DNA of 64,000 bases from Psococerastis gibbosa (lineage: Eukaryota > Arthropoda > Insecta > Psocodea > Psocidae), in contig OZ020491.1 in NCBI GenBank assembly GCA_963971405.1, forward strand, positions 27,489,019-27,553,018, written 5' to 3'. Shown piece after piece: positions 6,095 through 57,960 of the stretch (its first letter is position 1; every line of letters begins with the position of its first letter). Under the pieces are notes generated by a model. That model was not told the DNA's origin, made no database searches, and saw only the letters and a list, made by a program, of their open reading frames with translations. The translations under genes and the position numbers were made by a program.

Positions 6095-7234
6095 TTATCG
6101 TATTACCATTAATGTCAAGTCTAAGTTGAAAAACTCTTCGATATTCCTCATTTGGGACATCTCTTCATCAGTAACAAGACTGAGGAAATGGAGGTCATCT
6201 TGGCAAGAATACGACCTACGAAAATAATCCTTAAATCGTGTCGGCAGATCGTAGTTGACAACAAGGGGCACTTGATTTACCAACAGACAGCGGGGAAAAA
6301 GATCAGTTGTAACGAGCACTCTGCGGTCCCCATGGGTAAATTGCTCCAGAAGACATTGCCGTCCAGGCTTACTAGTATCAGAATGCAAGGCAGCGACTGA
6401 AAATCCTTCCTCCTCAAATACCTCTTTAACCACCTCAACTGTGGCTTTCGTATTACAAAAGATTACAGCTTGGTCACTGCCACATCTCATTTTTTCGCAT
6501 ATAAGGTGCAATTTTTCTAACTTGTCCTCTACTTTTACGTAACAGTTCATAACTCTTGTAATGTGCACCCATCTTTTTCTAGTACATAATATAGTCATAT
6601 TAGGGCTTGAATCGACTTGTTCAACGTTTAACATTTCTTCACCTTGAGCCAAGACAGGGGACAGAGTAATCAAGTTAGTATACGGTGGCAGTTTGCATAG
6701 AATAAAGTCAACCTCCTCCCTGTAATTACCGCTTAATAGTATCTGCGCTTCAACGAGGGCATAAACGTCAACAGTACCGACGAACAAGTGCTTGTCACGC
6801 ACTAATTCTGCAATACATTCTGGAGTGGCTACAACCACGTGAACCCCGTTTCGGATTTTTTCCGTCCCAAATCTGTCTACTTCCGAATCGTTTGGTTCGT
6901 TGCATATATTTTTGATGGGCTCTCCCAACACCATCAGTAACGATGAGACCTCGCGAGCTGTTTCCCATGTGGGGACTGCAATAATAGCCTGTACCGGACA
7001 CCGTCGATTTTTCGAGGGCTTGATTTTGTGCAAAATAGCAATGCAAAGTCCTGTGATCTTGCCGCCGCACCTGTCGGCCGTAACAATTACATTGCAACCC
7101 GATTTGATTGATTCTATCATAGACCGTTGAATAGGAAAGGGCTTCCTAATGCAAAGCACTTTCAATTGGTTGATAAGTTTCTCGCCCAGGCCCATTTCGC
7201 GAAAACTACGAGGTTCTAGATGTTCATCACTCAT
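6095..7234 (-). CDS. eIF4A-like pseudohelicase 1 (379 aa, catalytic motifs lost)
   Basis: The single uninterrupted frame aligns with eIF4A along its whole length, including the end (EEMSQMRNIEEFFN versus the eIF4A pattern EEDKRTLRDIETFYN). Q-motif Phe11 and Gln36 are kept. Walker A is ADRCGGKI (53-60): the Lys is kept and the Thr is lost. PTREL is PTWET (88-92). TPGR is TPEC (137-140). DEAD is VEAQ (161-164). SAT is SPV (192-194). IFCNT (258-262) and NYDLPT (327-332) are kept. ARGID is PRCLL (314-318), and motif VI HRIGR is RRSYS (339-343). With no Mg-coordinating Asp or arginine finger it should not hydrolyse ATP; RNA or eIF4G-like partner binding is only an inference. There are no introns, which suggests a retrocopy origin. 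The start ATGAGT after AATTTAAAA is shared with genes 2 and 3. At 379 residues it is slightly shorter than eIF4A (~406). Confidence 0.88.
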   Translation of the reverse strand: MSDEHLEPRSFREMGLGEKLINQLKVLCIRKPFPIQRSMIESIKSGCNVIVTADRCGGKITGLCIAILHKIKPSKNRRCPVQAIIAVPTWETAREVSSLLMVLGEPIKNICNEPNDSEVDRFGTEKIRNGVHVVVATPECIAELVRDKHLFVGTVDVYALVEAQILLSGNYREEVDFILCKLPPYTNLITLSPVLAQGEEMLNVEQVDSSPNMTILCTRKRWVHITRVMNCYVKVEDKLEKLHLICEKMRCGSDQAVIFCNTKATVEVVKEVFEEEGFSVAALHSDTSKPGRQCLLEQFTHGDRRVLVTTDLFPRCLLVNQVPLVVNYDLPTRFKDYFRRSYSCQDDLHFLSLVTDEEMSQMRNIEEFFNLDLTLMVIR

Positions 7235-7350
7235 TTTTAAATTGTTAACGTTTTAAAATGCAACAGCAACACAGTTATACGCGAACTGGACTGGTGCGGA
7301 TTGTGCTACAGCCTGCAAGCGCTTGTGGCTCTGTGAAACCAGTCAAAAAT

Positions 7351-7373
7351 CTGCGCAGAAGTGGGATTAACTA
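7351..7373 (-). promoter_or_regulatory. conserved upstream element with palindrome CTGCGCAG (gene 1)
   Basis: Plus strand CTGCGCAGAAGTGGGATTAA, ~117 bp upstream of the ATG. The same string, with small changes, precedes genes 2 (12821) and 3 (19192) at nearly the same distance. CTGCGCAG is self-complementary and resembles an NRF1 half-site. A second shared string, GGCGCAGACTT, follows at 7382 and 12850. Promoter role inferred from position and conservation. Confidence 0.55.
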
Positions 7374-7518
7374 AACACATTGGCGCAGACTTAGAAAAAT
7401 CTTGAGAGTTTTTACTTTTTCCGACGAAAAGTGTTTGGAAGTTGTTGGGAGGCACCCAATGATAATCCCCAGAAGACTTTTAGAGAGATTTTATTTACTA
7501 CCTTACGCTACTTTACAA

Positions 7519-7722
7519 GACATGTAATTAGGTAGAGTAATGGTACGGACTGTGACTTTCACCCGAAAGGTTGTTGGTTCGAGTCCTACACTGGCTAAAT
7601 TTTCTGGCCATTCTTCGGAGGGCATGTAAAGCAGGCGGTCCCGTTCCTTCCTAGTTGAATGTAAGGGAGGGTTTTATAGCCCTAACTCCGCCCGGTTGGC
7701 TTAATAATAGAACAAAAAAAGT
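7519..7722 (+). mobile_element. tRNA-derived SINE, family 1
   Basis: The head has an A-box-like GTAGAGTAATGGTACGGACT pattern and a perfect B box, GGTTCGAGTCC. The body is TTCGGAGGGCATGTAAAGCA then TAGCCCTAACTCCG, with tail AATAGAACAAAAAAAGTC. Seven more copies are in the window. Pol III promoter structure is seen; mobility depends on a LINE. Confidence 0.85.
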
Positions 7723-7792
7723 CCTTATTTATTATATTTTTATTTTATTTATTTACTTACTTACTTAGGTTAAAATAAAGTAAGTAGCTTTT

Positions 7793-7960
7793 GAAATGGA
7801 GACTTCCGGAAAATTTCTTCACAACTTTTCATTTCATGACCCCTTGAGCATAAAACCCCATTACATAATATGTTATTTTTATATAATAATATACTGTATA
7901 TACTATATACTATATATACTGTATGTATGTATTGTTTACGTATGTATGAACTGTGCCGGG
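7793..7960 (+). repeat. dispersed repeat (TTCATTTCATGACC family) with AT-rich tail
   Basis: GGAGACTTCCGGAAAATTTC and TTTCATTTCATGACCCC match the copies at 24250 and 26702. A TATA/TGTATGTA-rich tract follows, as in the copies at 13768 and 24190. Confidence 0.55.
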
Positions 7961-8459
7961 TTTGGCCTTAATTGTGGGCCGGAATTGTGTAAGGGCCTTT
8001 TGAGCTTAGACGAATCAATGATGCGATACATATCACTATCAATGATAAAATGGAGACCCAAAGTCCCGCCAAATATTTTGACAAGATAATTTTCTATTTT
8101 ATTTTTATTTTACTTTTTATTTTAATCAATTGTAGCCTAATTTTGAATTTAATTGAAAGGACTTTATTGAAATCCCAAAAGGCAAACAATAAGACTATAA
8201 AGTATTGTTTTTATGCTAACTTTAAAAAAGATTGTATTATTAATATGTTACTTAAAATTAAATCGAGAAGAAATAGCAACTACTGAGAAGAGAGGAGAAA
8301 AGGATAAAGTATATGCGCGGGGGGGGGGATTCATTTTGCAACTTTTGGTGGAGGCCTCTTCTTTGTGGGGGCCCTGGGGTCATGGCTCTCTTGGCCCCAT
8401 AGCCAAACCCGGCACTGTGTATGTAAGTAAGTAAGTAAGTAAAAAGTTAAACTGAAATG

Positions 8460-8640
8460 CTGTACCGGCCCTAGCACGTGGAAACACAGTTGGGCTGGTT
8501 ATAATTCCTTGTAAAGTATTGAATGTAATATAACTTAAATATTTTAGCGTATTTAAAGTTAATATTAATTTTGTCATTTTATGTATACTTCTCTTGTTGG
8601 AAAAAATTGGAATAAATAGATTTGATTTGATTTGATATTG
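8460..8640 (+). mobile_element. LINE 3-prime end with TTTGA tail
   Basis: Ends in GGAATAAATAGATTTGATTT, a short-unit tail typical of several LINE clades. A shorter relative lies at 12935-12992 (TTGATTAAAATATATTTGAT). No coding part is present. Confidence 0.5.
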
Positions 8641-8799
8641 AAACATGCAGGAAACAAATACACAATAATTGTAAGTTCGCCCTAGGTAGACCTATTGTAT
8701 GTCCAATTTCCCCTGCCTAACACGTACTGTATGTACAGAAATGTAATGTATGTAGTGTATTATAACTTCCATAGATATTACCGTTAGGTGCTTATCTTT

Positions 8800-9070
8800 G
8801 GCTCCTGGAGTCAGTTGGCGGAGTCAGTCCTAGTCCAGACTTAGAACCTAAATGTGAGTTACTCTTGAGTTACACTTCTAGAAAGATGTGGTTAAAAATA
8901 AAATAAAAATCGTATTGCATATGGTGTATTAAATGAGTTTATAAAAAAAAACACCTGTTTGATAATACAATGTAATGTCAAGTACTGTATTAGTATTTAT
9001 TAGTACTGAAATTATTATTTATATTATTTTAATAATAATAATAATATAGTAGGTAAACGATTATACAATG
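8800..9070. repeat. segmental duplication block A, copy 2
   Basis: CTGGAGTCAGTTGGCGGAGT matches 14342-14362, and AGTACTGTATTAGTA matches the AAGTATTGTA.TAGT of the other two blocks. See 3200 and 14335. Confidence 0.6.
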
Positions 9071-9276
9071 AGGACATGGTCAATGTTAAATTTAAATGTT
9101 TTTTAAATGTAATTTAATGTTAAAATGTTAAATTTCAAATTAGGTTCAGAGTCAAATTTTAAATTAGGTTCAGAGTCAAATTAAAATACAATACATTATT
9201 ATTAATGGTTGTGAAACAATATTTTTTTTAAACCTGTTTAAGAAAACGATTGCAAGAGGCTAAATTAAATTTAGGC

Positions 9277-9434
9277 CCGATCCGGCGATGATACTTATTA
9301 AGACGCTTGTAATTTTTTCATTATTATTACTTAATCGGCTGACATAGCCTAATTAAGGCAGCCGATTCAATAATAATAAAATAATAATAAAATCACAATA
9401 GAAGCGTCACTTAAATGATCTGTCGTCGGATCGG
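9277..9434. mobile_element. small fold-back MITE (CCGATCCGGCGA ends)
   Basis: CCGATCCGGCGATGATA at the left pairs with the GTCGTCGGATCGG end at the right. The interior has inverted TTATTATTA / TAATAATAA and GGCTGACATAGCC. It resembles the unit tandemly repeated at 14876-15580. Confidence 0.65.
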
Positions 9435-10218
9435 TTCTTAGTAAATTAAGGTAAGGTAAGGCCACTTACATAGGCTATATTGGAAATTCGGAGAGTTAAA
9501 TAAAATAGTGATATGTCAAATTAAAATATTAATTAGGTACACATTTTAATTTGACATGCTTAGTACAAATATAATTGTAATGTGCTAAAATTACAGAAAG
9601 CTGCAGTGGTTGACATTGGCTAACCCTGGATTGTTTGAATAATTTGGTTTATATTTTTTATTTATTTTTATATATGCTTACGTTACAACGATTTGTTCTG
9701 TTAAATTATCAGAAGACTATTTCAAAGCATACATAATAGTACTTTTTTTTGTTTTTTTTGTTTTTTGTTTTTGTGAAGAATGAAATTGATAGAAGATAGA
9801 AATTTACCAAACTACAGTATTAAATTCATGGCAAAATTAGGACAAAAAAAATGAAACTCGCCTTATTATATAGTGTACGAAAAAGTCCTATGATACTAAT
9901 TGAATGGACTAAAACTTTATGAAAATCTGACCCCCCCCCCCCCACAAAAAAAAACAATTCTGGCAACGCCATTGTCAACGGTAAGTTTCCCGTTAATAAT
10001 AAGATTGAGTTTTAGAAAGTTTTAACCCTTTGAGGTATACATTTAATATTTTATTAATAAAGAAAAATATGTGCTAGACTTTTCAATAAAAATGGACGCC
10101 GCACTCGTCAACGAAATTGGGCTATAAAATTTTTAATAATGAAGCTACTAGCATGTTTTTCTGTTGTGGTTTGAGCATGGGGCAGAACCGAAACCAGGAA
10201 AAACTCATTATCTGCGGT

Positions 10219-10606
10219 TTAAGAGTGTAGGAAATTGGCAGCCCGCAATTTAATACTTTTTAATTTTTTATTTAATTAACTAAGCTAGCTTTTAAAAATT
10301 TGGCTCGTTTAAGTTGTAGAAGACTACTTCATGCATCATATAATAAGGTATTTTTAGTTTTCGAAATTGGAGTTTTTTTTTATAAAATCGATTATACGTT
10401 AAAAGGTATTGTTTATATATAATATTATCATGTTTAAAAAAACTACAATTTCGAAGATTAAAAATATCTTACTATATGATGTATTAAGTAGTCTTCTACA
10501 ACTTAAATGAGCCAAATCTTTAATAACTTGCATAGTTAATTAAATAAAAAAGAAAAAGTATTAAATTTCGGGCTGCCACTTTCCTATTGGCTGTACACTT
10601 CTAATG
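10219..10606. mobile_element. TTAA-type fold-back MITE
   Basis: Arms GAGTGTAGGAAATTGGCAGC and complement, with inner arms TTGTAGAAGACTACTTCATG. TTAA precedes the left end; the right end is altered. Same family as 10824, 17064, 17520 and 20126. Confidence 0.75.
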
Positions 10607-10823
10607 AGTAGGTACCCAACACCCCTGAAAGGGTTAAATTTACCGAGTTTTTTGGATGGAAAAACTATTTTCTCGTTCCACAGTGTCTTTTATCGCGGAA
10701 ATAACCTAGAGGAAATTTCTAACACAAAGTTTTCTACTTTTCCAGGAAAGTAGGCTACATTTCACAGATATTTTGGAATAGTCGTAACAGAGTAGCAAAT
10801 CGGACTGCGATTGTATAATGCTC

Positions 10824-11227
10824 TTAAGAGGACATGCTACGTAGAAAATGAGCACCCCAAAATTTGTTGTTTTTATGGCATTTTTATGTTTTATTTAATT
10901 AACAAAGCAAGCCATTAAAAATTTGGCTCATGGAAGTTGTAGATGACTGCTTCATGCATCATGCAATAGGAAATATTAAATTTTTGGTATCTTAGTTCTT
11001 TCAAAAATACCAGAACGGACTATAATTATGCGTATTCTGGGATTTTTGGAAGAACTACAAGACCGAAAAGAAAAAAAAACTCGATTATATGATGCAAGAA
11101 GTAATCTTCTACAACTTCCATGAGCCAAATCCTTAATGACTTGCTTTGTTAATTAAATAAAAAATAAAAAGTCCATAAAAACAACAAATTTTGGGGTGCT
11201 CATTTTCTACGTAGCATGTCCTCTTAA
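10824..11227. mobile_element. TTAA-type fold-back MITE with intact target duplication
   Basis: Bounded by TTAA on both sides (10824-10827 and 11224-11227). Ends are GAGGACATGCTACGTAGAAA and complement. The arms cover nearly the whole ~400 bp. The TTAA target site is the hallmark of piggyBac transposase, but the ends do not begin CCC. Confidence 0.85.
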
Positions 11228-11254
11228 TAAATTGTTTTTATAGTGAATGTATTT

Positions 11255-11560
11255 TAATATGCTGGTTTTGGCTGTAGAACGCTATATTAATCAATTCTGC
11301 CGAAGTGTAGTGATTTAATTTTACTATTAAAATGCTACATCTACTTTTTGTTTCATATCCAGGAAAGCTAATTATAGATATTGGAAACCCTTAGCTTCCA
11401 GGAGCTTAAATTTTACATTAAGACATTAATCTGGTTAAAAAACAACATTCGTCACTTGTTAAAAATATGAAAAAGCTAAAATAAGTGGAAAGAAGACAGT
11501 CGAAGAAAGAGCCCATGCCGTTCAAATTTTGCCCACAACAAATCTGAGCCTGAAATGCTG
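11255..11560. repeat. duplicated 3-prime flank of gene 2
   Basis: Shares CGCTA.ATTAATCAATTC with 16780-16800, and TTAAGACATTAAT..GGTTAA plus CGTCACTTGTTAAAA with the flanks of genes 1 and 3. The flank was therefore part of the duplicated unit. Confidence 0.6.
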
Positions 11561-11564
11561 AAGG

Positions 11565-12692
11565 CTACAGAAAGTTGGTTTTTCTCAGTACAAAGTTGAA
11601 AAACTTACTAATTTCTATCATTTGGGGGAACTCTTCATCAGAAACAAAGCTCATGTAAGGCTCGTAATCACTGCAACTGCGAGATCTCCGAAAATAATCT
11701 TTAAATCGCGTCGGAACATCGTAGTTTAAAACAAGGGGCACTTTTTTTGTTAAATGACATCGTGGAAACATATCCATTGTTACGAGATGTTTGCGGTCTC
11801 CCGCCAAAAATTGATGCAGAAGACATTTCCGTCCCGCTTCACTGGTGCCTGAATGTATTGCCGCGATGGACAAACCCTCCTCATCTGCAACACCCCTAAC
11901 TACGTCAACGGTTTCTTTCGTATTACAAAAGGTTATCGACTGCAAATCCCTACTTTTCATCTTTATGCATAGCTCGCGGAATTTTTCCAACCTGTTCTCA
12001 ACTTTTACGTAATATTGCCTAATTCTCGGCATTACTTCTCCATTTGTATTATTGAAGTACACACCCAATTGTTCTGGAACGAAATCTTCAACAGTTGCCG
12101 ATACGTCAGGGGGTAAGACAGGGGATAGGGAAATCAATTGGACGTCTGACGGCAAATTGGTTCGAATATAGTTAATGCTGTCCATGAACTCATCTTTTAC
12201 CAATACCTGCGCTTCAACAAGGGCAAAAACGTCAACAAGACCTGTGTACAACTGTGCACGCATTAATTCTTCAATACATTCCGGAGTAGCAACAACCACT
12301 TGAACCCCTTTCCGGATTTTTTTCGTGTCAAATCTGTCCGATTCTGAGTTGTTCGGTTCGTTGCAAATATTTTTGACGGACTCGCCCAACGCCGTGAGTA
12401 GCCACGAAACTTCGCGAGCTATTTCCCATGTTGGCACAGCAATTATAGCCTGTGCCTGACATCGCCGACTTTTCGTGGGCTTTAATTTCTGCACAATAGC
12501 TATGCATAGCCCTGTAATTTTCCCCATACAATGGTTGGCTTCAACTACAACATTCTGACCTGATAAGATCGCTGCTAACATAGATACTTGAATAATAAAG
12601 GAACTGTCAATGCCCAATAATTTCATTTGCTTTAAAAGCACGTCATCCAGCATTTGATCAAAACCAAACTGTATCAAAGGCTCAGCACTCAT
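11565..12692 (-). CDS. eIF4A-like pseudohelicase 2 (375 aa, catalytic motifs lost)
   Basis: Uninterrupted intronless frame, second member of the array. Over the 60 residues from QAIIAVPTWE to ATPECI it is identical to gene 1 at 48 positions (hand count). Walker A is ANHCMGKI (52-59). PTREL is PTWEI (87-91). TPGR is TPEC (136-139). DEAD is VEAQ (159-162). SAT is SPV (190-192). Motif IV FCNT (255-258) is kept. TTD is TMD, and ARGID is PRCHL (310-314). NYDVPT (323-328) is kept, and motif VI is RRSRS (335-339). The N-terminal Q-motif region is the most diverged part, but Gln35 remains. The pattern predicts no ATPase activity. The start ATGAGT in the AATTTAAAA context is the conserved one. Function is not known; a decoy or regulator of translation initiation is a guess. 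Confidence 0.88.
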   Translation of the reverse strand: MSAEPLIQFGFDQMLDDVLLKQMKLLGIDSSFIIQVSMLAAILSGQNVVVEANHCMGKITGLCIAIVQKLKPTKSRRCQAQAIIAVPTWEIAREVSWLLTALGESVKNICNEPNNSESDRFDTKKIRKGVQVVVATPECIEELMRAQLYTGLVDVFALVEAQVLVKDEFMDSINYIRTNLPSDVQLISLSPVLPPDVSATVEDFVPEQLGVYFNNTNGEVMPRIRQYYVKVENRLEKFRELCIKMKSRDLQSITFCNTKETVDVVRGVADEEGLSIAAIHSGTSEAGRKCLLHQFLAGDRKHLVTMDMFPRCHLTKKVPLVLNYDVPTRFKDYFRRSRSCSDYEPYMSFVSDEEFPQMIEISKFFNFVLRKTNFL

Positions 12693-12820
12693 TTTTAAAT
12701 TTATAACGTATATTGATTATAAAACAGTAACACAACTATTCACGAACAACACTGAGCTATTATGCTACAGCCTGTAGCGTATGTGACTCTGCATGCCCCG
12801 AAAATCAACCAAACACTAAT

Positions 12821-12843
12821 CTGCGCAGAAGTGACAATTAACT
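12821..12843 (-). promoter_or_regulatory. conserved upstream element with palindrome CTGCGCAG (gene 2)
   Basis: CTGCGCAGAAGTGACAATTA lies ~129 bp upstream of the ATG, followed by GGCGCAGACTTGG at 12849. Matches the elements at 7351 and 19192. Confidence 0.55.
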
Positions 12844-12934
12844 AACAGTGGCGCAGACTTGGGGAAAATGTTGGGGTGCTTCTCATTGTGAACAAAATAA
12901 CTTTACAAAGTACGTTTGACAAATTTAATACGGA

Positions 12935-12992
12935 GACTATTTATGTATACTTGTTTGGTTGCAAAAATTGATTAAAATATATTTGATTTGAT
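12935..12992 (+). mobile_element. short LINE 3-prime tail (TTTGATTTGATT)
   Basis: TATACTTGTTTGGTTGCAAA and TATATTTGATTTGATT resemble the end of the 8460-8640 fragment. Confidence 0.4.
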
Positions 12993-13085
12993 TGGGATCA
13001 TGGATATTAAGGGTGGTTCCCACTAAATCCCGAAAAACTTTCCTTCTGTTATTATAATAAATAAATAAATAAATAAATAAATAAG

Positions 13086-13290
13086 GACTTTTGTTGTTCT
13101 ATTACTAAGCCAATCTAGCGGAGTTAGGGCTATAAAGCCGTCTCTTACACTGAACTAGGCAGGCCCGGGACCGCCTGTTTTACATGCCCCCCGAAGCAAG
13201 GTTAGAAAATGTAGCCAGTGTGGGACTCGAACCAACAACCTTTGGGATGAAAGTCAGAGTCATTACCACCACTCTACATGCCCTGACTTT
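13086..13290 (-). mobile_element. tRNA-derived SINE, family 1
   Basis: B box (GGACTCGAACC on the plus strand), CATGCCC and TAGGGCTATAAAGCC body, and the tail TTTTGTTGTTCTATTAC preceded by an ATAA microsatellite at 13060-13084 are all present. Confidence 0.8.
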
Positions 13291-13468
13291 TGATGGCTTG
13301 CATCTATAAATAGTGCATACAATTTCACAGTTTTGAACGTTTTTTTACTTTTACCAGTTCCCAAAGGAATTTTTTTGGGGGGCATATTGCCGACCACAAC
13401 ATTCCAAGTAGAGCAGTGGACATAGAGAATCCTCTACCTGTGCACTGACCTAGACCCTTATTAGGCTG

Positions 13469-13653
13469 CAAGGGCGGATTTTGCCTACAATTTAGGGGGG
13501 GGGGTCAGCGGGTAGGTTCAGTGGATTATAACATTAAAAAACATAATTATTTTTAATTCCCACTGTAAACCCATTGTTATATAGTGTAAGTTAATTTATT
13601 TAGGGGGGGGGGGTCCGGACCCTATGACCCCCCTCTCCTAAAATCCATCCTTG
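13469..13653. mobile_element. G/C-run hAT-type MITE
   Basis: Ends CAAGGGCGGATTTTG and AAATCCATCCTTG are inverted, each next to a G-run and GTCCGGACC/GACCCCCC. No clean 8-bp duplication at this copy. Same family as 62664-62737. Confidence 0.6.
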
Positions 13654-13671
13654 CCGTCGTGGCGTTTTAGG

Positions 13672-13850
13672 GAGATTCATGTACCTATTGAGATGGCAAC
13701 CAATATTCGACTTTCTTCAAAAAATTTCATTTTATGACCCCTGAGCCTAAAACCACCCTCCGTTCAAAATGTTATAGCATATATATAATATGTGTATGTA
13801 TGTATAAATTTATATCGATTTTAGGAAACACTCTAATTTCCGTAAATATT
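13672..13850 (+). repeat. dispersed repeat (GGGAGATTCATGTACC family)
   Basis: TTTTAGGGAGATTCATGTAC, TTGAGATGGCAACCAAT and ACCACCCTCCGTTCAAAATG match 24250-24358 in opposite orientation. Confidence 0.6.
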
Positions 13851-13894
13851 ATCCGATTTTTATGAAACTTGGCACAAAAAGTAATCATTCAAAT

Positions 13895-14143
13895 GAGTTG
13901 CCTATTAGCAAAAGCAATCCTCTCCATTTTTTTTTCAGTTTTGAGATATTCGCGCCATTTTTTTATTTTTCAATACTCTATCCGATGAATCAGATATTGA
14001 GACGCAAAAGCAATTCTAATACTGTTAAAATTAGCTTTAAAAACTGTAATGTTATACCTCATGGCGTTGCGGCACAGCTGTTTTTTGTGGTTTCTGAAAA
14101 ATCAACCTGGGTGGAGAGGATTGCTTTTGCTAATAGGCAACTC
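13895..14143. mobile_element. fold-back MITE with AAAT target duplication
   Basis: Ends GAGTTGCCTATTAGCAAAAG and complement, flanked on both sides by AAAT. An almost full second copy in opposite orientation is at 61168-61410, flanked by AATT. No protein is likely; the frame across it is a by-product. Confidence 0.85.
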
Positions 14144-14334
14144 AAATGTCTTGATCGAGTTCGTTGAATGAAGTATTTTTTATATTTTTTTATTACATAC
14201 ATAGCGTAGGTAGCGTAAAGGAAAAGAAGGGACTGCGGAATCTCCCTACACCTGATCGGCCAGAGCGGAAAGGGATTTTTTCTTAGAGGTAATTTACAAG
14301 CCTAAGTTAAAAGTTACATTAGCCTATATATATC

Positions 14335-14560
14335 TTATATTCTGGAGTCATTTGGTGGAGTCAGTTCTCGGCCATTAAATAGCCAACAGTCCGGACTGAA
14401 GTCACGGGCTTGAGAGGAGTATGTAGTGATACAAAAAGACTGTAATTTCAATATTGTATAAGGCGTATTAATGAGATTGTTGTACAAAAACATCATTTAA
14501 ACAATTTACAGTTCAAAGTATTGTATTAGTAACTGTTAATACTAATACATACCAATGGTG
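14335..14560. repeat. segmental duplication block A, copy 3
   Basis: TAGTGATACAAAAAGACTG, TATTAATGAGATTGTTGTAC and AAAGTATTGTATTAGTAACT match copy 1 at 3250-3365; TCTGGAGTCATTTGGTGGAG matches copy 2. Confidence 0.65.
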
Positions 14561-14698
14561 AATAATTCATTAAGCCTCCGTAGTTTAACACTCCACCGCC
14601 CCCCCCCCCCTCCATAGCCAGATAGTATAAGTCGCACACGGGCCCTTGCCTTGCGATATGGACTTAAGAAAACGCTGTAACATGGCATTTTTTGTATT

Positions 14699-14806
14699 GA
14701 ATTATTATATTATATTATATTATATTATATTATATTATATTATATTATATTATATTATATTATATTATATTATATTATATTATATTATATTATATTATAT
14801 TATATT
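14699..14806. repeat. pentanucleotide microsatellite (TATAT)n
   Basis: About 21 near-perfect copies of the five-base unit ATTAT/TATAT. Confidence 0.95.
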
Positions 14807-14875
14807 ACTACAGTACAGATAAACTACGATTAAGGGCATAGTGCTTAAAGTTGAATTAAGAAAATTTAATTAAGA

Positions 14876-15580
14876 CAGAAAATGATGTTACATAATTACA
14901 CTAACTGTTTTAAGGTCTGTTCCGATGAACTTTACTTAAAATTTAAGTAACGGTTATCTTTTCTTTATTTTATTATTATTAAAGAATTGGCCAAATACGT
15001 TGCCGATTCAATAATAATAATGACAAGTACGTCACTTAAATTTTAAATCGGATCTAGATTTAGATCGGATCTAGAATTGATCTAAAAATTACATTGAAAA
15101 AAGCACAGAAAATGATGTTACATAATTACACTAACTGTTTTAAGGTCTGTTCCGATGAACTTTACTTAAAATTTAAGTAACGGTTATCATTCCTTTATTT
15201 TATTATTACCAAAGAATTGGCCAAATACGTTGCCGATTCAATAATAATAATGACAAGATAAGTACGTCACTTAAATTTTAAATCGGATCTAGATTTAGAT
15301 CGGATCTAGAATTGATCTAAAAATTACATTGAAAAAAGCACAGAAAATGATGTTACATAATTACACTAACTGTTTTAAGGTCTGTTCCGATGAACTTTAC
15401 CTAAAATTTAAGTAACGGTTATCTTTCCTTTATTTTATTATTATTAAAGAATTGGCCAAATACGTTGCCGATTCAATAATAATAATGACAAGATAAGTAC
15501 GTCACTTAAATTTTAAATCGGATCTAGATTTAGATCGGATCTAGAATTGATTTAAAAATTACATTGAAAAAAGCACAGAT
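14876..15580. repeat. three tandem copies of a 230-240-bp MITE-like unit
   Basis: Units start with CAGAAAATGATGTTACATAA at 14876, 15106 and 15341 and are almost identical. Each contains GTTCCGATGAACTTTAC, an inverted ACTTAAATTTTAAATCGGAT, and a GATCTAGATTTAGATCGGATC palindrome. The fold-back resembles 9277-9434, so a small transposon seems to have been tandemly amplified. Confidence 0.9.
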
Positions 15581-15804
15581 TAAAAAATATTGAATATACA
15601 ATAGCAGATTCCTGAAATAGGTATACGATATATTGTATACATGTGTCACTTACATATAATCAGATAGTAAAAATATTTCCTATTGAAATTTAAGAACACT
15701 ACTTTTATGAAAATATTAAGGGACAACAGGCTAAATATTAAATAAATAAGAGAACAAAAATTAGAGGCACACGGAAAATAAATAAAAAATCTTAGTTTGT
15801 AGTG

Positions 15805-16218
15805 AACACAGACTCAAAAGAGAGCTAATTTAAAAGCAGTCAAAATGTGAATTTAGAACTATTTTTAATATCACATATTATTTAATTTGTACAAATTTAT
15901 TAGCAATTTGTTACAATTAACAATTAAGACTAAAAGTTTTGGTTAATACAGAGTCAAAATCGAGCTAATCTAAGAGCAGTCAAAATGTGAATTTAGAACT
16001 ATTTTTAGTATCACATAGGCCTATTATTTAATTTGTACAAATTTATTAGCAATTTGTTACAATTAATAATTAAGACTAAGTTTTGGTGATCACAGAGTAA
16101 AAAATGAGCTAATCTACGAGCAGTAAAAATGTGAGTTTAGAACTAATTTTAATATCACATATTAGTTATTTTGTACAAATTTAATAGCAATTTGTTACAG
16201 TTATTATTAAGACTAAGT
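15805..16218. repeat. three tandem copies of a ~140-bp unit
   Basis: Units begin near 15805, 15945 and 16088 with ACAGAGTCAAAA.CGAGCTAA and contain GCAGTCAAAATGTGAATTTA and TAGCAATTTGTTACAATTAA. More diverged than the array just before it. Confidence 0.85.
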
Positions 16219-16346
16219 ATTTTATACCTATATACAGTCATTGTGACCGAATTAGGGCTGCCTTGAGTTGTGAGAGAGATGGGACATTGGAGCGCGCCAA
16301 AATTATTTTTTGAATCCTGAGGCCGTCTGGTAAGTTTTCTCAACGA

Positions 16347-16480
16347 CAGCAGGCTGATCATGGCGATTATAATACCGGGTTTTTAAATAATACCCTGGTA
16401 TTAAGAATGTAAACAAACAAATTTTTAATGCCAGGGATTATTTAAACCCCGGTATTATAATCGCCATGATCAGCCTGCTG
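16347..16480. mobile_element. fold-back MITE (CAGCAGGCTGATCATGGCGA ends)
   Basis: Arms run through CGATTATAATACCGGG and back. Relatives lie at 46613-46776, 47388-47562 and, in part, 48401-48500. Confidence 0.85.
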
Positions 16481-16754
16481 GTCCTAGGAGGCGTGATGAG
16501 TGGCCCCAGAATTCGAAAAAATATATTTTTGGTGGGAAACGAATGTCCTACCTCTCCTATTTAGAAATCTAGACCTGATTACTTGTGCGGCCCAAAGCCT
16601 CAAGTATCATGAAAATAATCTTATGTAAATTTCATGGGACATAAAAGATTTTCCATTAAAGTTCAATTCATAGGGAAACTTTGGTAACAGGCTGCAATAT
16701 AAGAAATGGATTTTTAATATTACTTTTAATAATTTTAAATGTTCTCGTGGGAAT

Positions 16755-17063
16755 GTAAGCTGGTTATGGAAGTGGAACGCTAAATTAATCAATTCCGTTG
16801 AAATTACTCGGCAGCGCGTTGTGTACAATTACAAGGTCATATTGCCTTCCTTAAGATGTAATAGGCTATAACTTAAATTGACACGATGTGCTTTGGGTGC
16901 AGCTTTCTATAATTTGCCTCTTAAATTATATTATATTGTTAAGTATACATAATACATAAACTTATTGATTTTGGTGTAATCCAAGTGTGACTAGTATTTA
17001 AACTACTGTACGTATATTCTCTTAAGTAGGCTAACATTTAAAAATCTTAAGACATAAATCAGG
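16755..17063. repeat. duplicated 3-prime flank of gene 3, first part
   Basis: AACGCTAAATTAATCAATTC matches 11280 in the gene-2 unit, and CTTAAGACATAAATCAGGTT matches the flanks of genes 1 and 2. The flank resumes at 17441-17519 (ACACCAGTCGCCAGTTGTTA) after a MITE. Confidence 0.6.
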
Positions 17064-17440
17064 TTAAGAGGATATCCTCAGTAGAAAATTGGCACCCCAA
17101 ACTTAAAAAAACGTTTCATTTTTTATTTCATTAACTCAGCAAGTCATTAAAAATTTGGCAGATTTAAGTTGTAGAAGACAACATGGTGCATCATAAAATC
17201 GGGTATTTTTACTTGTCGGTTTTCCAAAAAATCCCTGATTACGTGAAATTTTAGTCCCCAATGGTATTTATAAAAATACCAAAGGTACAAAAAATTTAAT
17301 ATTTCTTATTATTTGATGCAGGATGTAGTCTTCTACAACTTACATGAACCAAACCTTTAATAACTTGCTTCGTTAATTAAATAAAAAATCAATAAAACGA
17401 CAAATTTTGGGGTGCTAATTTCCTACGTAGCATGTCTTAA
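17064..17440. mobile_element. TTAA-type fold-back MITE inside the gene-3 3-prime flank
   Basis: TTAA at 17064 and 17437. The arms share TTGTAGAAGAC.ACATGGTG with other members. It splits the duplicated flank, so it arrived after duplication. Confidence 0.8.
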
Positions 17441-17519
17441 AATACACCAGTCGCCAGTTGTTAAAAACGCTAATAAAAAAACACTAATTGAAACACGACA
17501 CTCGAAGAAACAGTTTGGC

Positions 17520-17915
17520 TTAAGAGTACACAGCCCGTAGGAAATTGGCAGCCCGAAATGTAATTCTTTTTATTTTTTATTTAATTAACTAAGCAAGTTA
17601 GGCTATTAAAGATTTGGCTCATTTAAGTTGTAGAAGACTATTTGTCTTCATGCATCATATAATAAGATATATATTTTTTATTTTCGAAATAAACATAAAC
17701 ATGACAAACAATAACTTTTCACGTATAGGCCTAATCGATTTTATAAAAAAACTACAATTTTGAAAACTATAAATACCTTATTATATATGATGCATGAAGT
17801 ACTCTTCGACAACTGAAATGAGCCAAATCTTTAACAACTTGCTTAGTTAATTAAATAAAAAATAAAAAGTATAAAATTTTAGGCCGCCTATTTCCTACGG
17901 GCTGTACACTCTTAA
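17520..17915. mobile_element. TTAA-type fold-back MITE abutting the gene-3 stop codon
   Basis: TTAA at 17520-17523 and 17912-17915; ends GAGTACACAGCCCGTAGGAA and complement. The right-hand TTAA contains the TAA stop of the minus-strand gene. Minus-strand AATAAA at 17576-17581 could now serve as a poly(A) signal. Confidence 0.85.
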
Positions 17916-19060
17916 GATTCGGGATAGAAAAGACGATGATTTTTTATCAATTGTAAGTTGTAGAACTCTTTAATTTCCATCAGTTGTGGTGTTTCTTCAT
18001 CATTAACTAACGTTATGATATCAAAATAATCTGCAGCATGACAAGATCTTCGTAAATAATCTTTAAATCGCGTAGGCACATCATAATTTACAACAACGGG
18101 TACTTGAATTCTTACAAAACAGCGGGGATACATATCTGTTGTAACAAGTAGCTGGCAACCATTATCTAGAAATTGTTTCAGTTGAATTTTTTGCCATTGT
18201 TTAACTGTACCAGAATCCATGGCAGCCACTGAGATTCCTTCTTTTTCAGCAATCTCCTTAACAATATCAACATTACGTTTCGCATTACAAAAGACTATCA
18301 TTTTATCAGGTACTTTTATCATATGTTTGCACATCAGACGAAATATTTCCAATTTGTCTTTTGTGTTTAGATAATAGTGTTTAATTCTCTCAAGTGTTTC
18401 TGTATCATCTCTAAACCCCATTACACACAAAGAGATTGGGATCAATTTCTTTGCAGTTTCAAACACGTCATCAGGCAAAGCAGTAGAAATGGAAATCAAT
18501 TGAGCATCTGACGGCAAACCCGTAATAAATGACTCAATTTTATCCTTGGACTCATCTTTTAGCAATATCTGTGCTTCAACGATACCAAAAACATCCACCA
18601 GGCCCATAAATAATTGATTTTCGCGCATCAATTGTTCAATCAATTCCGGAGTTGCTACAAAAACATGAACCCCTGTCCTAACTTTTTCCGTGTCAAATAT
18701 GTCCGTACCTAATTCGTTTGGTTCGTTGCATTTAATTCTCTTAAACTCCACAAAAGTCCGGAGTAACCATGAAACTTCTCGTGCTAATTCCCATGTGGGC
18801 ACTGCAATAACAGCCTGAGCTTGAAATGGCTCACATTTTCCACGACTTATTCTCATCACAACAGCCAAACAGAGAGCTGTAATTTTTCCAGTGCACCTTT
18901 CGCTCTGTACTATGGCATTACCACCTAAAGCGAGCTGCTGGAGCACAGTTTCTTGCACAGAAGTGGGATATTCTATGCACACACGTCTTAATAGTTTACA
19001 AAGATTCTTAGGTAGTCCCAGTTCACGGAAGGTTAAACGTGTCGGAGGTTCAACACTCAT
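17912..19060 (-). CDS. eIF4A-like pseudohelicase 3 (382 aa, catalytic motifs lost)
   Basis: Third intronless member. An in-frame ATG exists at 19075, but I place the start at 19060 because ATGAGTGTTGAACC after AATTTAAAA matches genes 1 and 2. Phe11 and Gln36 of the Q-motif are kept. Walker A is SERCTGKI (53-60). PTREL is PTWEL (88-92). TPGR is TPEL (137-140). DEAD is VEAQ (161-164). SAT is STA (192-194). FCNA is at 257-260. TTDMYPRCFV (307-316) stands for TTDLLARGID. NYDVPT (325-330) is kept, and motif VI is RRSCH (337-341). This copy keeps more eIF4A-like text elsewhere (DDVFETAKKLI). It matches gene 1 at 38 of 60 residues in the PTWE-ATPE block (hand count). The TAA stop lies in the TTAA target of a MITE. 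ATP hydrolysis is not expected. Confidence 0.88.
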   Translation of the reverse strand: MSVEPPTRLTFRELGLPKNLCKLLRRVCIEYPTSVQETVLQQLALGGNAIVQSERCTGKITALCLAVVMRISRGKCEPFQAQAVIAVPTWELAREVSWLLRTFVEFKRIKCNEPNELGTDIFDTEKVRTGVHVFVATPELIEQLMRENQLFMGLVDVFGIVEAQILLKDESKDKIESFITGLPSDAQLISISTALPDDVFETAKKLIPISLCVMGFRDDTETLERIKHYYLNTKDKLEIFRLMCKHMIKVPDKMIVFCNAKRNVDIVKEIAEKEGISVAAMDSGTVKQWQKIQLKQFLDNGCQLLVTTDMYPRCFVRIQVPVVVNYDVPTRFKDYLRRSCHAADYFDIITLVNDEETPQLMEIKEFYNLQLIKNHRLFYPES

Positions 19061-19191
19061 TTTTAAATTAATCACAAATTACATATATATCACAGTACTA
19101 CAACTACACACAAAATCCGGATTGTCTTAAGTCACGTTACAACTAGTTACGCATGTTCCTCTATGCACTTGACCGCAAATAAAGCTTTTAA

Positions 19192-19214
19192 CTGCGCAGA
19201 AGTGAGAATTGAAT
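19192..19214 (-). promoter_or_regulatory. conserved upstream element with palindrome CTGCGCAG (gene 3)
   Basis: CTGCGCAGAAGTGAGAATTG lies ~132 bp upstream of the inferred ATG at 19060. The rest of this 5-prime flank has diverged from genes 1 and 2, which makes the kept string stand out. Confidence 0.55.
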
Positions 19215-20082: not shown

Positions 20083-20580
20083 AATAATAATAATAAATTA
20101 ACTTTGTTTGAAGAGGTAAACCTCCTTAAGAGTGTACAGCCCGTAGGAAATTGGCAACCCGAAATTTATTCCTTTTTATTTTTTATTTAATTAACTAAGC
20201 ATGTTATTAAAGATTTGGCTCATCAAAGTTGTAGAAGACTACTTCATGCATCATATAATAAGGTATTTTTAGTTTTCGAAATTGTAGTTTTGTTATAAAA
20301 TCGCTTTTACGTGAAAAGTTATTGTTTATAAAAATATCTGCTTGTTTTTGAAAAAACTACAATTTCGAAAATTAAAAATATCTTATAATATGATGCATGA
20401 AGTAGTCTTCTACAACTTTGATGAGCCAAATCATTAATAACGTGCTTAGTTAATTAAATAAAAAATAAAAAGGAATTAATTTCGGGTTGCCAATTTCCTA
20501 CGGGCTGTACACTCTTAATTGTTTAACCGGAATTAAAGGATATAGAAAAAATGGACTTGTCGAGATTCAAACCCAGTTTC
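20083..20580 (-). mobile_element. SINE family 2 fragment, split by a TTAA MITE
   Basis: GAAGAGGTAAACCTCC (20110-20125) and GGATATAGAAAAAATGG...GAGATTCAAACCC (20537-20573) match the two body parts of the SINE at 30119-30245. TAATAATAA at the left end would be its tail. Confidence 0.5.
20126..20518. mobile_element. TTAA-type fold-back MITE, best-preserved copy
   Basis: TTAA at 20126 and 20515; ends GAGTGTACAGCCCGTAGGAA and complement. The arms are near-perfect over ~180 bp each, joined by a ~40-bp loop. Inserted in SINE family 2. Confidence 0.9.
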
Positions 20581-32395: not shown

Positions 32396-32639
32396 GTAAT
32401 GTCTGATCTGAGTTATTTTGACAAAATTAATTAGGCAAAATCTTGATCGTAGCTGCCCCCCCCCCAAAAAAAATTTGCCAAAAAAAATGGGCTGGATCCG
32501 CCCCTGAACTCGCCGGAGCAAGAGGGAAAACAATGGCCGAGCTCAAGGCGTTAATGTCCAACCGGGGCGAGTTCAGGAAAAGGGCTCGGGGCGTTCTGCG
32601 CATTAGGGGGAAGAAGAAGACTATTAACACAGCAGTCCA

Positions 32640-52829: not shown

Positions 52830-54060
52830 CTGACAATTGAATATTGATTATAAGGCATCAACCTCATTGTGCCTTGCTGGAGGAAGTACATTGCGGCTTT
52901 GGGTTCCTACATTTAGTAGCTCGGGGCTTAGTGACTTTGGGTTCCTACTTACTAAACTTCTTGAGTTTCTATGTCCACCTTTCGGGCTGCTTCGTCTCAC
53001 AATTGAAAATCAGTTATAAGGTATCAACCTCGCTATACCTTGCTGAAGGTGGTAGCTTGGGACCTTGAGGCTTTGGGCTCCTACATTGTAAACTTCTTGA
53101 GTTTCTATGTCTACCTTGCTGAAGATACAATAGTAGCTTGGGGTTTTGCGGCTTTGGGTTCCCACATTATAAACTTCTTGGGTTTCTATGTCTACCTTTC
53201 GAGCGGCTCCGTCTGACAATTGAAAATCGGTTATAAGGTATCAACCTCGCTATACCTTGCTGAAGGTGGTAGCTTGGGACCTTGCGGCTTTGGGCTCCTA
53301 CATTGTCAACTTCTTGAGTTTCTATGTCTACCTTGCTGAAGGTACAATAGTAGCTTGGGGCTTTGCGGCTTTGGGTTCCCACATTGTAAACTTCTTGGGT
53401 TTCTATGTCTACCTTTCGAGCGGCTCCGTCAGACAATTAAAAATCGGCTATAAGGCATCAACCTCGCTGTGCCTAGCTGAAGGAAACTGCTTGGGGCATT
53501 GTAACTTTGGGTTCCTACATTGTAAACATCTCGAGTTTCTATGTCTACCTTGCTGAAGGTAGTAGCTTAGGGCTTTGCGACTTTGGGTTCCTACATTGTA
53601 AACTTCTTGAGTTTCTATGTCTACCTTGCTGAAGATACAATAGTAGCTTGGGGCTTTGCGGCTTTGGGTTCCCACATTGTAAACTTCTTGGGTTTCTATG
53701 TCTACCTTTCGAGCGGCTCCGTCAGACAATTAAAAATCGGCTATAAGGCATCAATCTCGCTGTGCCTTGCTGAAGGAAACTGCTTGGGGCATTGTAACTT
53801 TGGGTTCCTACATTGTAAACATCTCCAGTTTCTATGTCAACTTTGCTGAAGGTAGTAGCTTAGGACTTTGCGGCTTTGGGTTCCTACATTGTAAACTTCT
53901 TGGGTTTCTATGTCTACCTTTCGAGCGGCTCCGTCAGACAATTAAAAATCGGCTATAAGGCATCAACCTCGCTGCGCCTTGTTGAAGGAAACTGCTTGGG
54001 GCATTGTAGCTTTGGGTTCCTACATTGTAAACATCTCGAGTTTCTAGATCAACCTTTTTG
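52830..54060. repeat. minisatellite with higher-order structure (82 + 134 bp)
   Basis: The core CTTCTTGAGTTTCTATGTCT recurs about a dozen times. Alternating ~82- and ~134-bp units make a ~216-bp higher-order repeat; the long unit carries GAGCGGCTCCGTC.GACAATT. It ends ~100 bp before the 54165 exon. The open frames across it follow from a repeat length divisible by three. Confidence 0.9.
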
Positions 54061-54164
54061 GAGGCTAGGTCTGAAGCTTGCGTCTATGCGGCATTAGGTA
54101 ACACCCAATAAAAAAATGTGTCCGACTTACACCATTATTTTCATTTACATTTCCAATGTTGCAG

Positions 54165-54445
54165 GTACCATCTACCACCTAATTCTTCTGATCGTCGCCA
54201 TGCTGGCCCTCGTTGAAGCCGGTGACATGATGCGAAAGTCCATAATCTACGACAAGAATACGCCCCACGTTTTCTACTGTCCGCAGAAGAAACCCAAGGG
54301 TGTCGACAAGATGATCGTGAAAGCCAAGCCACTTTCCAAACTCTGCGAGTATGAGGGGACACCCCTGCCGGAGGACTACAAGAGTGATTGCTACAACGAT
54401 GTCGATGAGACTGAATACGCTTGCAAAGAGAAGAGAAGGATACAG
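54165..54445 (+). CDS. small secreted four-cysteine protein, penultimate exon
   Basis: The acceptor TTCCAATGTTGCAG ends at 54164, and the donor CAG|GTGTGT starts at 54446. The exon is open throughout. It starts in phase 1 and its last codon ends exactly at the donor. It begins GTIYHLILLIVAMLALVEAG, a hydrophobic stretch with a small-residue cut site typical of a signal peptide, so the start codon and a few residues should lie in an upstream exon I could not find. Then come DMMRKSIIYDKNTPHVFYCP, KLCEYEGTPLPEDYKSDCYN and YACKEKRRIQ, with four cysteines. The family is not recognised. The product is probably secreted with two disulfides. Codon use and charge pattern look coding. The 5-prime side is crowded by a minisatellite. 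Confidence 0.75.
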
Positions 54446-54722
54446 GTGTGTGTGTGTTAGAGTGGTGCAGGAAGTATAGGGCTCATGTCTAAAACATTTG
54501 GCGAGGGGATTTAAAATGGAAACAATTGGGATTCCTATTAGTGATGTGTAACTCCGCTCATTTTGTCGACTTAAGTTCGGATGTACGAGGTGTTCATCTT
54601 ACGATGCAATGAACAGAAGAGGCACACGCGTGACCTACTGGAGCTGCATCCGGTGCATCGAGTCCGCCGGCTCGGCTAGTCAAAGCCCAGTGTACACGCG
54701 ATGTGATGGTGCAGTTGGCTAA

Positions 54723-56329: not shown

Positions 56330-57960
56330 ACAGCCTACCCAACAAATTCAAAAATCTCAGTCCGAGGATCATCGTAATGAGAAGTTATATCTATTATACA
56401 CAAGTGACATCAGCTAATAACCATTAATTATAACTGACTACATGGCCAGACGTTCTTACTATGAAACATTAGATACATGGACTCTTCTGACCTGCTGGCT
56501 GCTGTTAACTCCTTTTAACTACAGTTAACTATAATAAGACTCCTGACAGATTCTGAATCCGAGTATCATCGTAACAACAGCTGACGATTTATATTCATTA
56601 GACACAACTGACATTTACCAATAACCATTAGTTATAGATAGCCCCATGGACAAACGTTGCTACTTTGAAGCAATTAGATACATGGACTCTTCTGACCTGC
56701 TGGACGCTCGTAGGCTAAATACTACTTAACTACTTCGAGTGCACTGCATGTTAAGTCTTGACTTTTATTACCCCAATAAAGACTTCTGACAGCCTACCCA
56801 ATAAATTTAGAAATCTGAATCCGAGGATCATCGTAGCAACAGCTGACGATTTATATTCATTAGACAAAACTGACATTTGCCAATAACCATTAGTTATAGA
56901 TTATGACTCTATGGATTGTTACGATGAAATAATTAGAGACATCTTGGACTCTTCTGACCTGCTGGCTGCTATTAACAGCAATGTGATTGCACTTCGTGTA
57001 ACGTCTTGACTTATATTACTCGAATGACAGCATATCCAACAAATATTGAGAAATCGGAATCAGAGGATCATCGTTATGATCAATTATATCCACTGGATAC
57101 AACTGAAATCAACCAATAACCATTGGTTATAGCTGAATCCATGAACAGACGTTGCTACGATGAAACTTGGACTCTTCTGCTGCTGCTGTTAACTACTGCT
57201 GCGAGTGCACTACATATTACGTCTTGACTTTTATCTCTAGTACCTACTCGTACGACGTCTCCCTTAATAATACAACTTATACCTGATCGTTCTGATCCAA
57301 CATCGGGAAAGATGGTTCCAAGGACCATCGCAACAGAAACAGGCCAACTGTTGAAACTGTTGACCAGGGACTTTGCATTAAACGAAGTCAATTATTGACT
57401 GAATATCCAAATTGCTCTAGTAGCCGACTCGTTACGTCTTGACTTAACTGTAACTCGTACATCAACACAATTTACTGGACCCAACAGAAGTCTAGACACA
57501 AATAACCACCACGCATTGAATCTGTGGACCGACATAACAGAAACAGACCAACTGTTGAAAAGGAACGTAGACTTTGCATTAAATGAAGTCAATTATTGAC
57601 TGAATATCCAAATTGCTCTAGTAGCCGACTCATTACGTCTTGACTTAACTGTAACTCGTGCATCAACACAATTTACTGGACCCAACAGAAGTCCAGACAC
57701 AAATAACCACCACGCATTGAATCTGTGGACCGACATAACAGAAACAGACCAACTATTGAAAAGGAACGTAGACTTTGCATTAAATGAAGTCAATTATTGA
57801 CTGAATTTCCAATTGGTTCTACTATAGTTGCTGACTTGTTACGTCCTGACTTAACTGTTACTGTTGACCCATCAGAGGTCCAGACACAAATACGCTTCGA
57901 ATCTGTGGACCAACGTAACAACAGACAGATTCAGGGGACACGGACTTTGCGCTAACTGCT
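56330..57960. repeat. diverged intronic tandem repeat, ~200-240-bp unit
   Basis: Landmarks GACTCTTCTGACCTGCTGG, CGAGGATCATCGTA and ACCAATAACCATT recur near 56340, 56550, 56800 and 57050. The last copies, 57392-57592 and 57593-57793, are 201 bp each and nearly identical. Older copies are progressively diverged. Confidence 0.8.

Follow-up and report, generated by a model that had tools for sequence, protein, structure and literature searches.

A multigene family of putative non-catalytic helicases derived from eIF4A in the bark louse Psococerastis gibbosa

We analysed a stretch of 64,000 nucleotides from the bark louse Psococerastis gibbosa (contig OZ020491.1, here C19, positions 27489019–27553018; hereafter the window) and identified three intronless genes, W1, W2 and W3, whose products resemble the DEAD-box protein eIF4A and lack residues needed for its catalysis. 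They belong to a family of at least 16 genes. We consider it fairly probable that the family arose from a retrocopy, is maintained by selection and consists of pseudohelicases that act without catalysis, probably as two-lobed scaffolds.

All three window genes are single open frames on the minus strand: W1 at 6095..7234 (379 aa), W2 at 11565..12692 (375 aa) and W3 at 17912..19060 (382 aa). An earlier note on this DNA, made from the letters alone, had described three open intronless frames, and the coordinates bear this out. An in-frame GTG lies at 19075, 15 bases upstream of the W3 start codon, but the ATG at 19060 sits in the start context common to the family. W2 and W3 share 54% and 43% identity with W1, respectively. 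Each of the three proteins matches the Pfam domains DEAD (PF00270) and Helicase_C (PF00271) with E ≤ 2.2e-10, and among solved structures in the PDB the top match of W1 is eIF4A-I (E 1.4e-41). The altered motifs VEAQ, GKI, PTWE, PRC and RRS, which the note had listed, are present in all three.

Whole-genome searches that took W2 and the distant member F15 as queries, and scored only the best candidates, gave 21 and 22 matches, respectively, so that the family count is a lower bound. Both queries recovered the same 16 full-length uninterrupted frames in the 409 Mb genome (68 contigs), an agreement between two ends of the family. The members lie on six large contigs, with seven on C19, five on C12 and one each on C3, C20, C15 and C14. 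Four of the C19 members stand in tandem at 27.486–27.508 Mb; the fourth, at C19:27485952–27487067, is located about 2 kb to the left of the window. The tandem arrangement proposed for the window genes is thus correct, while the family is considerably larger than the three genes first recognized. Elsewhere in the genome, at 14.569 Mb of C13, there is a frame that we take from its motif to be UAP56-like; it is a single stretch with an internal TAG, perhaps a retro-pseudogene of another helicase.

Residues are numbered here as in human eIF4A-I, which places a Cys at 264 and an Arg at 295, in agreement with PMC6262856; the canonical reference comprises five eIF4A/eIF4AIII rows, two of them partial. 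Both aspartates of the DEAD motif have been lost from all 16 members: Asp182 is replaced by Val (14 members), Ala (one) or Tyr (one), and Asp185 by Gln (14) or His (two). Arg110 has become Trp in 15 members and Cys in one, Arg161 is missing in all 16, and the GG pair is complete in no member, with one glycine left in a single protein. Around the ARGxD motif, Ala333 is Pro in every member, Gly335 has given way to Cys in 15 of 16, and Asp337 is Leu (14) or Val (two). The arginine finger of motif VI, Arg362, is gone from all 15 members that have a residue at this position. In the Walker loop, Gly79 has changed to Cys in 15 of 16, and Thr83 is Ile in eight and retained in two (F12 and F16). Other positions persist, namely Gly81 and Lys82 (15/16), Glu183 (15/16, with Asp in the remaining protein) and Arg359 (14 members). 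The shared loss of catalytic motifs, as originally put, needs qualification: the DEAD glutamate and the Walker lysine persist, and GKI, present in W1–W3, does not extend to the whole family. The view that the ancestor was already inactive when it duplicated is supported by the absence of Asp182, Asp185, Arg110, Arg161 and Arg362 from every member with a residue there. On these sequences, catalysis by the family proteins appears very unlikely, as does RNA binding through the usual motifs.

Across the 212 columns that are invariant in the canonical rows, 35 are retained in at least 80% of the family, 23 are replaced by a different residue conserved at the same level, and the remainder are variable; an earlier alignment gave 34 retained and 24 replaced-and-conserved columns. 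Compared with a DEAD-box ATPase, the family keeps the two-domain DEAD and Helicase_C homology and lacks both DEAD aspartates, Arg362 and, with Thr83 retained in only two members, the Walker A GKT/S. The combination of helicase homology, lost catalytic residues and selective maintenance (not significant for the pair F04–F06 taken alone) is that of a pseudohelicase.

Selection on the open frames was assessed with codon models from a custom script, in which the M8 runs used branch lengths fixed from M0. The ratio of nonsynonymous to synonymous substitution rates (dN/dS, ω) falls between 0.38 and 0.64 in 13 of 14 comparisons, made up of eight groupings and six pairs. Among the groupings, the three youngest genes give 0.566, the three window genes 0.450 and C19 0.528 (p ≤ 4e-4); the ratio is 0.412, 0.532 and 0.524 for three two-gene groupings (p ≤ 4e-4), 0.644 for F10–F15 (twice the log-likelihood difference, 2ΔlnL, 29.5) and 0.618 for all 16 (2ΔlnL 120.9). 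Five of the six pairs are significantly below 1: W1–F06 (0.401), W1–F04 (0.620), W1–W2 (0.489), W2–W3 (0.397) and W1–W3 (0.377). The comparison among the three window genes is one that the earlier note had called for. In a random-substitution control, run 200 times per gene at half of its distance from the closest paralogue, a mean of 2.1–8.8 stops per gene was expected, and none is seen in the 16 genes; the probability of zero stops was ≤ 0.005 for 13 genes and 0.075–0.11 for the three youngest. That selection has kept open the surviving frames to which the note had pointed is supported by the low ω and by this control.

The constraint is distributed unevenly. Under M1a, 41% of sites in the C19 grouping have an ω of 0.16, with the others set at 1. 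Former motif sites have a mean ω of 0.61 (n = 54) versus 0.74 for non-motif sites (n = 301; p 0.013), and the strongest constraint is found in motif II (mean 0.26) and motif Ia (0.33). Sites of the Q, III and QxxR motifs are not extra constrained (0.85–0.94; for the eight Q-motif sites, mean 0.88). A class of sites above 1 is favoured by M8 over M8a for all 16 members (2ΔlnL 17.0) and for F10–F15 (2ΔlnL 10.5), tentatively so because synonymous sites are near saturation across all 16. In the linker region (W1 residues 211–225, human 230–243), 9 of 15 sites fall in this class with a posterior above 0.9.

An eIF4A-type origin, as first proposed from the sequence, is supported by both profile scores and phylogeny. 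A profile built from the 16 members matches eIF4A over its full length and scores eIF4A-I at 282.7 bits, ahead of eIF4AIII (270.4), Dhh1 (192.5) and Dbp5 (177.9), making eIF4A the closest DEAD-box protein. In the tree the 16 members form one clade (support 100/100) on a stem of 1.46 changes per column, and this clade is sister to the insect’s own eIF4A (support 80/87). The same genome carries a tandem pair of eIF4A genes with introns (C3, 32.403 and 32.418 Mb) and an eIF4AIII gene with introns (C2, 32.339 Mb). Their motifs are intact in the exons read; the final eIF4A exon could not be located, and reading of the second tandem copy stopped before motif V. The introns of these genes interrupt the stretch that the family frames read through, and the family is most simply derived from a retrocopied eIF4A. 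A viral or bacterial origin was also considered and set aside: in searches with one or two short peptides, none of 29 pattern matches in viral_contigs and none of 10 in genome_contigs was confirmed as a relative.

The genes also share a promoter arrangement. The element TTCTGCGCAG has three exact matches in the window, all on the minus strand and each upstream of one pseudohelicase gene, at 7351..7360 (W1), 12821..12830 (W2) and 19192..19201 (W3). Allowing one mismatch yields six matches against a shuffle mean of 1.69; two of the six are the palindromic W1 and W2 sites read on the other strand, and one lies elsewhere, at 32594. Within the family, the element is found with at most one mismatch in 10 of 16 upstream regions (shuffled mean 0.10, largest 2). 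It begins 124–205 bases upstream of the ATG and is followed by an initiator-like stretch and then by a AATTTAAAATG-type start. F11, which has a similar stretch farther upstream, was excluded from the upstream alignment. The proximal blocks, comprising the initiator-like stretch, the 5′ untranslated region and the AATTTAAAATG start context, lie on the minus strand at approximately 7235..7313 (W1), 12693..12772 (W2) and 19061..19144 (W3), the last with the same make-up and more diverged than that of W1. The similarity of the upstream regions suggests that the later copies arose by duplication of DNA.

Downstream, W2, W3, F07 and F16 have repeats in common, some of them palindromic. AT-rich repeats in a partly palindromic arrangement occupy window positions 10247–11171, 17102–17916 and 20162–20519. 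The repeat at about 10819–11171, presumably a miniature inverted-repeat transposable element, is present in high copy on both strands of the genome (4413 first-look candidates, of which the best 40 were scored).

Taken together, these features would fit the following course of events. An eIF4A messenger was probably retro-copied in the bark louse lineage, and the copy gained its own compact promoter and lost, as judged from sequence, ATP hydrolysis and the RNA-contact motifs. It was then duplicated as DNA, promoter included, to at least 16 genes. The proteins probably retain the two-lobed RecA fold and would act as non-catalytic binding platforms. In these, the motif Ia/II region, together with portions of the inactive ATP cleft, may have been remodelled into a conserved core that serves structure or partner binding. 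The linker and other sites diversify, which would be expected of proteins that follow changing partners. Duplicates that lack introns, turn over fast and have a promoter of their own often occur in reproductive or host-defence settings. Given this pattern, a reproductive or host-defence ribonucleoprotein is the most likely setting, with tissue and partners as guesses.

Several observations weigh against this explanation or parts of it. The overall range of ω, 0.38–0.76, indicates weak constraint, and its upper end belongs to the youngest pair, F04–F06 (0.758, p 0.24), which is not distinct from 1. The class above 1 is not favoured in the C19 clade that contains the window genes (2ΔlnL 1.2), and the saturation noted above further tempers the case for diversification. 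Motifs hold no significant excess of columns with a fixed replacement (11/69, versus 12/143 elsewhere; Fisher p 0.10). As to origin, a grouping with eIF4AIII instead of eIF4A is not rejected (approximately unbiased test, p-AU 0.124), and W3 alone fits eIF4AIII slightly better, with a top PDB match of 123.2 bits, narrowly above the 118.6 bits of eIF4A-I. One decayed family copy lies at 656 kb of C12. Among the upstream regions, six of 16 carry TTCTGCGCAG with two or more mismatches. An extended form of the element has 28 genome matches at up to two mismatches, eight of which, the three best among them, lie at family promoters, but the total is barely above the 25 of a reversed control. The proximal-block pattern, at up to three mismatches, has two genome matches, both at family promoters and with none in the control, but this means that a pattern drawn from the family finds just two of its 16 members. 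As both patterns were derived from family sequences, their family matches show specificity and not independent discovery.

The family proteins contain 9–16 cysteines each, versus 4–6 in the canonical rows. New cysteine columns occur at 79 (15/16), 87 (16/16), 335 (15/16) and 363 (14/16), within or next to motifs I, V and VI, which line the ATP cleft in DEAD-box proteins. Cys 79 and Cys 335 co-occur in 15 of 16 members, and F11 alone has lost both. A cysteine link across the cleft is a hypothesis. A bolder proposal, which we regard as rather unlikely, is that this family, restricted to one lineage and numbering at least 16 genes, is a translation helicase rebuilt as a non-enzymatic latch, in which the cleft cysteines (79, 87, 335 and 363), through a disulphide or a metal site, would replace ATP-driven lobe closure and yield a locked scaffold serving a fast-evolving germline or defence complex. 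The joint loss in F11 is a single event that may be due to chance; as the pattern was spotted post hoc in the alignment, this loss is not an independent test.

In the main rival explanation, the proteins would be natural dominant-negative forms that occupy eIF4G or eIF3 in place of active eIF4A and reduce translation in certain tissues or during infection. The precedent is the laboratory mutant eIF4A-R362Q, which inhibits translation in HeLa extract (PMC10362145). The derivation from eIF4A and the loss of Arg362 from all 15 members with a residue there fit this idea, which we nevertheless judge unlikely. Retention of the eIF4G surface is doubtful because the RNA-contact motifs are dismantled (Arg110 and Arg161 lost 16/16) and only 35 of the 212 invariant columns are kept at 80% or more. 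A further point, that Cys264 is retained in only three of 16 members, is weak: 12 of 16 have a cysteine three columns on, so that the alignment may be shifted, and although modification of Cys264 blocks eIF4G binding, the C264S mutant still binds eIF4GI (PMC6262856). Competition for eIF4G is possible, if weakly supported, and competition for eIF4G or RNA as suggested in the earlier note, with the GG pair broken as well, does not find support. The retained motif I GK and motif II Glu make nucleotide binding without hydrolysis conceivable, and the proteins might then use the nucleotide as a ligand in a residual switch. We think this improbable, since 15 of 16 members have Cys for Gly79, only two keep Thr83, the DEAD aspartates and Arg362 are lost throughout, and the Q motif is weakly constrained.

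Processed pseudogenes that remain open by chance would account for the lack of introns, the decayed copy and the ω of F04–F06, but would have to explain 16 open frames where several stops were expected in each, ω below 1 and a promoter element in common; we hold this to be very improbable. Equally improbable, in our view, is a gene spread as transposon cargo or by viral capture. Although the members are dispersed on six contigs and four of them share downstream repeats, the family adjoins the host’s own eIF4A in the tree, and the short-peptide searches confirmed no viral_contigs or genome_contigs relative. For the stretch 10433–11171, only the query’s own place among the 40 scored lies at a family locus, and the right half of this stretch is a high-copy dispersed element, though the left half matched nothing else among the first-look candidates listed. 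The repeats near W2 and W3 are disfavoured as a mobile carrier on these grounds.

Among known proteins, eIF4A (DDX2) and eIF4AIII (DDX48) are the best sequence matches; family members share with them a pair of RecA-like domains whose order and length agree from ahead of the Q motif to the C-terminal FYN. The family differs by the loss of both DEAD aspartates, Arg110, the GG pair, the TPGR arginine, ARGxD and Arg362, in being intronless, in its 16 copies and in its cysteine content. TDRD12 and Yb are germline helicase-like RNA-pathway proteins and had been named as a lead. The Pfam scan of W1–W3 (three of 16 members, 375–382 aa) found only DEAD and Helicase_C, with neither a Tudor domain nor extra length, and the lead fails for W1–W3. 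The closest described parallel is Utp25/Def, a DEAD-box pseudohelicase of the small-subunit processome and likewise a catalytically dead relative under selection; it is a single, essential and conserved ribosome-assembly gene with vestigial motifs (PMC9539457), whereas the present family is multigene, fast-evolving and nearer to eIF4A in sequence. eIF4A-R362Q shares the loss of the motif VI arginine but is eIF4A with one change (PMC10362145), whereas in the family most of the other conserved residues are gone too.

Few pseudohelicases have been described, and the authors who proposed Utp25 knew of only one before it (PMC9539457). Among the papers listed in searches of the open-licence literature, where absence is no proof, none concerns an eIF4A-derived inactive family, and none contradicts the claim to novelty made earlier. 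Here, at least 16 members derive from an enzyme that is among the most conserved in eukaryotes, with an active site partly exchanged rather than eroded. This suggests the evolutionary conversion of an engine into a building block without enzymatic activity. The family would permit a test of how a motor turns into a scaffold and of what lies behind its expansion. Should the proteins act on eIF4F or eIF3, they would constitute a natural, gene-encoded counterpart of laboratory dominant-negative eIF4A.

The window contains a few other features. A 298-aa frame at 1060–1956 on the minus strand matches the GIY-YIG domain (E 1.7e-5) and is probably the end of a Penelope-like retroelement. On the plus strand, a 115-aa frame at 54113–54460 has a hydrophobic start, several cysteines and no Pfam match. 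Tandem arrays occupy 52914–54056 (reported periods of 76, 212, 217 and 293 bases) and 57332–57812 (period 201).

At the level of the genome, nine contigs above 20 Mb total about 392 of the 409 Mb; nine chromosomes are also reported for the bark louse Loensia variegata (PMC13219991). The mitochondrial contig has the gene order M, C, I, Q, nad2, W, Y, cox1, L, cox2, K, D and, in a second run, cox3, G, A, R, F, nad5, nad3, N, S, E, H, nad4, where protein genes except cox1 were recognized by eye. This order agrees with that of two psocomorphan bark lice with translocated nad3 and trnN, S1, E, M and C (PMC3632521). Nuclear copies of COX1 are present on C14 (11085363–11086704) and other contigs, in a search that gave 43 matches, 27 of them above the cut-off, the mitochondrial gene included.

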